Source: a virus
Length of the DNA stretch: 40,870 nt
Direction: 5' to 3' (one strand)
Virus record (IMG/VR): IMGVR_UViG_3300044953_000273
Location: 1 to 40,870 of that record
Shown here: in pieces, positions 21,214-38,648 of the stretch
Layout: every line of letters begins with the position of its first letter
Position numbering within the stretch: position 1 is the first letter of the stretch
The notes under the pieces: model-generated
Seen by the model: the letters and a program-made list of their open reading frames with translations, nothing else
Databases searched by the model: none
What the model was told of the DNA's origin: nothing
Program-made: the position numbers and the translations under genes

Positions 21214-21221
21214 TATAAATA
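21214..21221 (+). promoter_or_regulatory. Late promoter box after the RAMA-like gene
   Basis: TATAAATA matches the T4 late consensus exactly. Transcription would start near 21227 and produce a short structured RNA ending at the terminator, or reach the HNH gene by read-through. Confidence 0.55.
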
Positions 21222-21259
21222 ATAATACCTGACTTGTTCGCACCTTTCAGGTAAAGTTT

Positions 21260-21286
21260 GGGGGGCAGAAATGTCCCCCCTTTCTT
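21260..21286 (+). terminator. Hairpin terminator in the RAMA-HNH gap
   Basis: Six G (21260-21265) pair with six C (21275-21280) around a short loop, followed by TTTCTT. The T-tract is short. It lies in the loop of the larger 11-bp inverted repeat. Confidence 0.65.
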
Positions 21287-21287
21287 A

Positions 21288-21295
21288 TATAAATA
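21288..21295 (+). promoter_or_regulatory. Late promoter for the HNH homing endonuclease
   Basis: TATAAATA is an exact T4 late box. The expected start near 21301 falls at the right arm of the inverted repeat, so the late transcript lacks the left arm. Confidence 0.7.
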
Positions 21296-21320
21296 GTATT
21301 GCGAACAAGTTAGAGTAGAA

Positions 21321-22103
21321 ATGAATTATCTAAGAGTTTATTGTAATCTTATTAGGAAAGCAGAAAGTAGAATTGCTCCTAACGATTACACAGAAAGACA
21401 TCATATATTTCCTATAAGTATTTTTGGTAAAAATGATAAAATTGCTGTACTTACGGCACGAGAGCATTATATCGTCCACGCATTATTGGAAAAAGGATTT
21501 ATAAAGAGATATGGATTAAAAGATAAGAGAACTATTAAAATGATTCACGCTCATATTTTAATGAAATCAAAAGGTAAATATTATAATTCTTATCTTTATG
21601 AAAGTGCAAGAATTAGAATGTCTGAATCAAAGAAAGGTAAAAAACCATATGTTATGACTGAAAAAATTAAAAATAAAATGAGTAAATATTCTAAAAATAG
21701 AAATGAAGAGCACAAGAAAAAATTGAGCGAATCATTAAAAGGTAGAATACCTCCTAATTATGGAAAATTGCATTCTGAAGAAACTAAAAGAAAAATAGGA
21801 CAAAAAAATAAAGGTAGAAAAGTTTCAGAAGAAACGAGGAGAAAATTGAGTGAATGTAAGAAAGGAGAAAAGCATTTTTTGTATGGGAAGAAAAGAGATA
21901 TTGAAGTTGTAAATAAAATAGTGGAGAAAAAAAGTAAAAATTTTTCTATTATAAATCCAGATGGTGAAATAATTTATGGTAAAAATATAGCAGAGTTTTG
22001 TAGAGAAAATGATTTAGATAAGGCGACCATATGTAATATGCTTAATTATAAAAGAGGAATAAAGTCACATAAAGGATATCGTGCCGTTCCTCAAAATATT
22101 TGA
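21321..22103 (+). CDS. HNH homing endonuclease with NUMOD modules
   Basis: The protein has 260 residues. An HNH core is near the N-terminus (ERHHIFPISIFG, then LTAREHYIVHALL). Lysine-rich NUMOD3-like DNA-binding repeats follow (GRIPPNYGKLHSEETKRKIG, GRKVSEETRRKLSECKKG, and GEKHFLYGKK), and a NUMOD1-like C-terminal helix-turn-helix (IIYGKNIAEFCRENDLDKAT). It is free-standing, between the RAMA-like gene and uvsX. It probably cuts a homologous locus in co-infecting phages lacking it. Its stop overlaps the uvsX promoter. Confidence 0.88.
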   Translation: MNYLRVYCNLIRKAESRIAPNDYTERHHIFPISIFGKNDKIAVLTAREHYIVHALLEKGFIKRYGLKDKRTIKMIHAHILMKSKGKYYNSYLYESARIRMSESKKGKKPYVMTEKIKNKMSKYSKNRNEEHKKKLSESLKGRIPPNYGKLHSEETKRKIGQKNKGRKVSEETRRKLSECKKGEKHFLYGKKRDIEVVNKIVEKKSKNFSIINPDGEIIYGKNIAEFCRENDLDKATICNMLNYKRGIKSHKGYRAVPQNI

Positions 22104-26644: not shown

Positions 26645-26718
26645 GGGGGATTAGCTCAGTTGGTAGTAGCACTTGCTTTGCAAGCAAGATGCCATCGGTT
26701 CGAGTCCGATATCCTCCA
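26645..26718 (+). tRNA. tRNA-Ala (anticodon TGC)
   Basis: The cloverleaf can be drawn: acceptor stem GGGGGAT with ATCCTCC (one G-T pair), anticodon stem CTTGC/GCAAG with loop TTTGCAA giving anticodon TGC, T-arm ATCGG-TTCGAGT-CCGAT, discriminator A. CCA is not encoded. The D arm GCTC...TAGC has an extra T compared with the usual GGTAGAGC, leaving only three good pairs. It would read GCA and other GCN codons, common in the phage. Confidence 0.92.
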
Positions 26719-37716: not shown

Positions 37717-37735
37717 TTGATATTCCTCATCACCC

Positions 37736-37775
37736 ACCCCCAGGATCGCCTACAAGGTGCCTCTGGGGGTTTTTT
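37736..37775 (+). terminator. Strong terminator after nrdB
   Basis: ACCCCCAG (37736-37743) pairs exactly with CTGGGGGT (37763-37770), followed by TTTTTT. The inner loop can form a smaller CCT/AGG stem. Confidence 0.9.
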
Positions 37776-37794
37776 AATGTCTCTCCACATTCTC

Positions 37795-37868: not shown

Positions 37869-38570
37869 TTAATCTTTTATCCAAATAATACCATCTTGTA
37901 ATCTTTGCTTGTATGTTTGGAATCCTATATTATTATCTTTCATATAGGAGACTACACTTTCCCATATTTTATTACCATCGCTAATGGTAATATTTCTAGA
38001 AGTTGTTAAAATTTGTTTATGTTTTTTTGTAAGAGTTTTTCCATACATAGGATTTCCTTCACCTGAAAACATTTCACTTAGTTTTTGTCTAACTTCTAGT
38101 CTTTTTGCGGGATTATTATCACCAATCATACGGTCTCTTAGCGATTCACAAAATCTATCGTTTCTTAAAACAACCTCATATATTCCAGTTCTTTCACTTA
38201 CAAAAAATCTACCTTCAATATTTGTGTTATAATATTCATCGGTCATTAATACATCTCTTTTAAATTGCTCATAAGTTTCATAATAAGACATAGATTTTTT
38301 ATGAGGACAAAGATAAAGTATTTCTCTCAAAAAATTTTCTTTTCCAAGTAGTTTAATATCTTCTTTTAGTTCATCACAGGAACCATAATAATTTCTCCAA
38401 TCACTTTCTTTCTTTTTTCTTCTTCCAGTTTTTCTATCTTTTTGACGAGTCCAGAAGTGTTTTTTACCAACGTACTTTTTTTCGTTTGTCAGGTTTGTAA
38501 TTAAATATACAAAACCTTCCATATTTTTTGGAACATCAACAAAATCTTCTTCGTTATATTTCCATTCCAT
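37869..38570 (-). CDS. GIY-YIG homing endonuclease with NUMOD3 repeats
   Basis: The protein has 233 residues, encoded on the opposite strand to all neighbours. The GIY-YIG domain is near the N-terminus: GFVYLITNLTNEKKYVGKKHF, with a conserved tyrosine and glycine, then WRNYYGSC, and FLREILYLC. NUMOD3-like repeats follow (GDNNPAKRLEVRQKLSE, GEGNPMYGKTLTKKHK), and a C-terminal helix-turn-helix-like end. It is free-standing between nrdB and the lysis genes. It probably targets this locus in phages lacking the gene. Confidence 0.88.
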   Translation of the reverse strand: MEWKYNEEDFVDVPKNMEGFVYLITNLTNEKKYVGKKHFWTRQKDRKTGRRKKKESDWRNYYGSCDELKEDIKLLGKENFLREILYLCPHKKSMSYYETYEQFKRDVLMTDEYYNTNIEGRFFVSERTGIYEVVLRNDRFCESLRDRMIGDNNPAKRLEVRQKLSEMFSGEGNPMYGKTLTKKHKQILTTSRNITISDGNKIWESVVSYMKDNNIGFQTYKQRLQDGIIWIKD

Positions 38571-38618
38571 AAAAATATTTTCTACCTTATATCACTATTT
38601 ATGATTGAAAATATTTTT
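38571..38618. repeat. Perfect 12-bp inverted repeat upstream of the GIY-YIG gene, with late promoter in the loop
   Basis: AAAAATATTTTC (38571-38582) and GAAAATATTTTT (38607-38618) are exact reverse complements 24 bases apart. The arm nearest the gene abuts its start codon. The loop contains the late box on the - strand and an AAGG ribosome site. Confidence 0.8.
38596..38603 (-). promoter_or_regulatory. Late promoter for the GIY-YIG gene
   Basis: On the - strand the sequence is CATAAATA, one base off the T4 consensus. Transcription would start near 38590, giving a leader that begins AUAAGGUAG and lacks the distal arm of the inverted repeat. Confidence 0.6.
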
Positions 38619-38648
38619 TACCTTAATCAAGATTTAAATATAGTTATT

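Follow-up and report, generated by a model that had tools for sequence, protein, structure and literature searches.

A conserved inverted repeat around a putative late promoter before a cyanophage GIY-YIG homing endonuclease gene, and the enrichment of similar stems before other endonuclease genes

The GIY-YIG homing endonuclease gene described here is preceded by a conserved leader in which two perfectly complementary arms enclose a late promoter box, and in a survey of cyanophage loci such box-enclosing stems are enriched upstream of homing endonucleases when ordinary late genes serve as the comparison. The gene lies near one end of the window, by which is meant the whole stretch of DNA analysed, a contig of 40,870 bases that alone constitutes the source record. 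There is about an even chance that its leader is a self-contained expression leader of a free-standing GIY-YIG endonuclease, following the logic of T4 I-TevI and segB. A gp55-type late promoter would lie in the loop of the inverted repeat, the inner arm of which would cover the translation start; an RNA initiated upstream would include both arms, and its start region would be folded shut, while RNA begun at the late promoter would lack the 5' arm and be translated, the outcome being a nuclease confined to late infection.

Organization of the GIY-YIG leader

The assignment of the encoded protein to the SegE type is based on a significant match across the whole domain profile PF19835 (SegE_GIY-YIG; E = 1.6e-37, profile positions 1-123), and Pfam also identifies a NUMOD3 motif (PF07460; E = 3e-6). 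The gene and the elements of its leader are as follows.

37869-38570, minus strand: free-standing homing endonuclease, SegE-type GIY-YIG with NUMOD3, 233 aa (Pfam)
38571-38582, minus strand: 3' arm GAAAATATTTTT, abutting the ATG and within the 5' UTR of the predicted late mRNA; 83% mean identity in 20 relatives
38583-38590, minus strand: predicted late transcript start (about 38590) and AUAAGGUA segment, placed by analogy with T4 spacing
38603 to 38596, minus strand: late promoter box CATAAATA, occupying the loop between the arms; invariant in aligned relatives
38607-38618, minus strand: 5' arm AAAAATATTTTC, which forms the outer limit of conservation in the leader; mean identity among relatives 85%

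Along the minus strand the order reads TAAGGTAAAAAATATTTTCAATCATAAATAGTGATATAAGGTAGAAAATATTTTT-ATG. In agreement with the original prediction, the segments 38571-38582 and 38607-38618 form a perfect inverted repeat with arms of 12 bp, exact reverse complements of each other with CATAAATA between them (in plain coordinates, AAAAATATTTTC is listed at 38571-38582 and GAAAATATTTTT at 38607-38618), and the arm nearest the gene directly abuts the ATG at 38570. Only 24 nt lie between the arms. Cyanophage late promoters have the consensus NATAAATA (PMC2984593). Nine of the ten ATAAATA boxes in the window are on the plus strand, mostly 27-41 nt before gene starts, and the single minus-strand copy is the present box, located 32 nt before the GIY-YIG gene. 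Transcription from T4 late promoters starts 5 nt past the box, and the same 5-nt spacer, applied here by analogy, predicts a late start at 38590 and an RNA beginning with AUAAGGUAGAAAAUAUUUUUAUG, matching the start near 38590 that had been proposed. The ribosome site that this RNA had been expected to expose was not confirmed: a distance of 14 nt separates the AAGG from the AUG, more than is canonical for a Shine-Dalgarno sequence, and the AAGG is replaced in relatives, among which the 38583-38590 segment differs, and it is therefore unconvincing in this role.

Each arm contains the palindrome AAAATATTTT, which makes this stretch a direct repeat of 18 nt as well (38572-38589 / 38608-38625). 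The direct repeat reads TAAGGTA(A/G)AAAATATTTT and is found only in the window and in the near-identical leader of one other locus (L001).

Conservation of the arms and the box

Relatives of the gene at 60-99% identity were found at 80 loci in IMG/VR. Conservation of the leader extends to about 50 distinct relatives; nearly all of the loci display the succession of arm, NATAAATA, arm and ATG, and the sequence directly before the outer arm is unrelated between loci. Among 20 relatives below 90% identity, mean pairwise identity reaches 85% in the outer arm (a value somewhat inflated by the placement of this arm by best match), 100% in the box and 83% in the inner arm, compared with 32-35% in three upstream 12-nt stretches and 52% at the four-fold degenerate sites within the coding sequence. 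A pattern search with the box and the inner arm only returned almost exclusively members of the GIY-YIG family, nearly all of which had the outer arm too, and full 12/12 complementarity of the arms occurs in many branches of this family. As judged from these alignments, the arms and the box are conserved as a unit that has the 5' arm as its edge. A truncated relic relative in S-SRM01 is devoid of the leader.

The GIY-YIG stem is AT-rich, and a stem as good enclosing the box was obtained in two of 60 and in two of 200 dinucleotide-shuffled upstream sequences (p of about 0.01-0.03), a single-sequence result that is suggestive only.

Endonucleases compared with ordinary late genes

The survey covered ATAAATA boxes 8-50 nt before open frames of at least 80 codons in 3.13 Mb of loci, comprising 679 distinct leaders from 178 protein families; as retrieval of the loci was centred on endonuclease genes, the ordinary late genes used for comparison share their contigs. 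The best box-enclosing stem of each leader was scored against 200 dinucleotide shuffles, and stems were considered to be strong in families with a median z of at least 3. Families were named by scanning representatives against Pfam and PHROG and, beyond these, by patterns in N-terminal sequences; a few of the families so named have weak or no profile matches. Strong stems were found in 14 of 30 homing-endonuclease-like families and in one of the 148 others (Fisher test, 9e-12), with survey medians of 2.8 and -0.2, respectively. The strong-stem families include both GIY-YIG and HNH endonucleases, and the arm sequences are unrelated between endonuclease families. The frequency of stems before other late genes is thus far from equal to that before endonuclease genes, and the general claim of the original prediction stands.

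The sole strong-stem family not recognized as a nuclease (L278, 8206-9270, plus strand) encodes a 355-aa protein with a phrog_5104 match at its C-terminus.

Gene orientation was considered as a clean predictor of stems and rejected, since it amounts to a tendency only: stems are also present in two antisense families (MYCVYLT and one HNH family) and absent from other antisense families, and a co-directional 145-aa SegE-like group has none. Stems of 11-15 bp around the late box precede GIY-YIG genes that are co-directional with their upstream neighbour in L212 and L256-L334 (the MKTYIVYK family) and in L035, L173 and their relatives; several of these genes are located directly after nrdB. These co-directional genes are better candidates for read-through silencing than the window gene.

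Pairing, predicted folding and genomic setting of the GIY-YIG family

In the 23 distinct arm pairs of the GIY-YIG family, 11.04 of 12 positions are paired, exactly as with swapped partners (11.04; 298 of 500 swaps reach the observed value), and this swap test therefore reveals no covariation of the arms over the 12 pairs. A slight excess of pairing is seen for the six inner pairs (6 of 300 swaps reach the observed value), and in the clade AAAAACATTTTC the 5' arm is conserved yet poorly pairing (-2.4 to -3.3 kcal). Compensatory T:A to C:G changes, convincing by eye, were considered as proof of pairing and discarded upon failing the swap test.

The predicted read-through RNA folds at about -8.9 kcal/mol with its arms paired, and the late RNA is predicted to be open. 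The cost of opening the start region in the read-through compared with the late RNA is +2.7 kcal for the window gene, with a family median of 3.2. For comparison, three co-directional families have a cost of about 12, the HNH type one of 6-7 and ordinary late genes one of 0.8, and 23% of the ordinary late genes reach 3.

In 54 of 57 distinct loci the GIY-YIG gene runs opposite to the longest ORF upstream of it; with wider flanks, it is antisense to its upstream neighbour in 67 of 71 loci and to its downstream neighbour, which is nrdB in 34 loci, in 64 of 69. From neighbour orientation in these sets, no longer early or middle sense transcript over the gene is evident; being antisense to both neighbours in nearly all loci, the gene has no obvious read-through RNA to silence. 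In the window, a terminator-like hairpin seen by eye after nrdB (37735-37776, plus strand; CCCCCAGG ... CCTCTGGGGG TTTTTT) faces the convergent endonuclease gene.

Pairing no better than in swaps, a small opening cost and the antisense position make the GIY-YIG gene a weak case. Silencing by a hairpin until late infection, as originally predicted, is favoured by the enrichment across endonucleases as a group; at the window gene itself, the lack of a pairing preference, the 2.7 kcal and the antisense setting speak against it.

Three other readings of the arms were considered. In the first, the arms would be DNA half-sites of an operator on either side of the late promoter, to which the endonuclease, in autorepression as in I-TevI, or another protein would bind, and their complementarity would reflect a symmetric binding site and not RNA pairing. 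Such an operator is rather unlikely, yet it accounts for several observations: a single half-site consensus (AAAAAYAYTTTC, read outward) describes both arms, each of which independently tolerates the same transitions, even ones that break pairs; the arm motif is family-specific; the antisense setting requires no read-through RNA; and the autorepression of I-TevI through a site overlapping its late promoter provides a precedent (PMC2988022). No binding or homing site was identified, however, and in other endonuclease families unrelated arms occupy the same position relative to the start codon, which RNA pairing explains more readily.

Less probable still is that the arms are conserved separately, one as a promoter-adjacent upstream tract and the other as an AU-rich ribosome-loading leader, the hairpin being vestigial or incidental in an antisense family. 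The absence of a pairing preference over swapped partners and the small predicted occlusion (2.7 kcal) would be expected under such a separate constraint, and an AT-rich palindromic motif eases partial complementarity (2 of 200 shuffles). On the other hand, ordinary late promoters and leaders contain neither motif, complementarity is complete (12/12) in many branches and the same geometry recurs in other endonucleases. A general upstream element of late promoters was also considered and rejected, the 5' arm motif being no commoner than in shuffles across the 148 ordinary late-gene families.

Finally, a chance repeat within AT-rich sequence, for which a single-sequence p of only about 0.01 might speak, is highly improbable because both arms are conserved in relatives far above neutral expectation, which contradicts chance, and because the enrichment is specific to endonucleases.

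A two-promoter leader before the HNH gene

The leader of the HNH gene of the window, on the plus strand, comprises the following elements.

21214-21320, plus strand: HNH gene leader, before the HNH gene at 21321-22103
21214-21221, plus strand: outer late box
21228-21231, plus strand: CCTG
21232-21241, plus strand: arm
21248-21251, plus strand: CAGG
21260-21286, plus strand: terminator hairpin with T run
21288-21295, plus strand: inner late box
21301-21310, plus strand: complementary arm

The order is thus late box, ACCTG, arm, CAGG, terminator, second late box, complementary arm, AGTAGAA and ATG. The two window genes had been thought to have the same layout and perhaps one regulatory cassette; neither holds for this pair, as a terminator and an additional late box are present in the HNH leader only. 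A shared cassette was instead found between the HNH family and other GIY-YIG families: it precedes unrelated nucleases, sometimes with an identical arm, as is the case for CTGAATGGGTGGTT, which occurs upstream of an HNH gene in L112 and L135 and of a GIY-YIG-like gene in L121.

Pairing was evaluated in 29 HNH-type leaders picked blind to the arms, by protein homology or by the box plus TAGAGTAGAAATGAA. In all 29 the leader's own arms are perfectly paired over 9-14 nt (G.U allowed), compared with mostly 0-8 nt when upstream halves are swapped among them; the outer box is present in all 29 and a terminator-like T run in 28. A wider set, selected for complementary arms, contains 19 arm forms and 132 cells changed on both sides, and none of 300 swaps reaches the observed pairing. 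Among named records, only S-SRM01 has a near-full-length match to the HNH leader. In a scan of the window against Rfam at gathering thresholds, no match was obtained in the HNH leader region or anywhere else besides a tRNA gene (26645-26718, plus strand).

Another leader with two late promoters, a stem-loop, a terminator and hypervariable covarying arms is located at 1395-1505 of L112. Contigs that carry two such leaders (L121 and L138; L230) have different arms in each, as expected if pairing specificity keeps the leaders apart, although the cases are few.

With T4 spacing, the outer promoter is predicted to start at ACCTG and the inner promoter exactly at the complementary arm, a layout that points to either an attenuator or a distinct short RNA that would base-pair with the mRNA 5' end. 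We consider it possible, if somewhat short of probable, that unrelated cyanophage endonuclease families share exchangeable leaders and that in the HNH type the outer promoter and terminator yield an RNA of ~60 nt in the loop of which a hypervariable arm of 12-15 nt is complementary to the extreme 5' end of the inner-promoter mRNA. Such an RNA would be a small RNA, or attenuator, dedicated to one nuclease, each nuclease having a pairing code of its own.

Discussion

At the GIY-YIG leader we infer late transcription, folding in vivo and silencing. Working in the manner of the T4 hairpins is the leading explanation of this leader and is plausible but unproven; membership in the T4-type hairpins is withheld because no sense read-through transcript is evident and the pairing is not preferentially kept.

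The results extend a control principle from about five T4 and Aeh1 endonucleases to many cyanophage nuclease families and include an internal comparison with ordinary late genes. They also offer a test of why selfish nucleases delay their expression, since antisense families should not need a hairpin if read-through silencing is the reason. The two-promoter leader with covarying arms, common to unrelated nucleases, may be an undescribed phage regulatory RNA.

The T4-type principle of a late promoter within a hairpin is already known (PMC2988022): late promoters within or next to a translational hairpin have been described for I-TevI, I-TevII, I-TevIII and segB of T4 and for mobE of Aeh1 (PMC2988022 Figure 5), and the published hairpin-regulated genes are on long polycistronic early or middle transcripts (PMC2988022). 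As in these systems, the gene encodes an endonuclease, the late RNA would lack the upstream arm and the downstream arm would cover the translation start. In contrast to them, the present gene is a free-standing SegE-like gene of a cyanophage, antisense to both neighbours, with a weak AT-rich stem, no covariation and no canonical Shine-Dalgarno sequence in the stem. T4 segD is likewise a free-standing GIY-YIG gene that is antisense among opposite-strand genes, but it has no recognizable promoter of its own (PMC2988022), whereas the window gene has a conserved late box. The arms resemble the I-TevI operator in lying next to the late promoter of a GIY-YIG endonuclease gene, and differ from that single operator in being symmetric. 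CfrI of S-PM2, an antisense RNA of roughly 225 nt, provides a parallel as RNA-level control tied to a cyanophage homing endonuclease (psbA/homing endonuclease), although nothing resembling such an RNA was seen at the window gene. Finally, the RNA of ~60 nt proposed for the HNH leader would resemble a type I antitoxin RNA in limiting its own nuclease.
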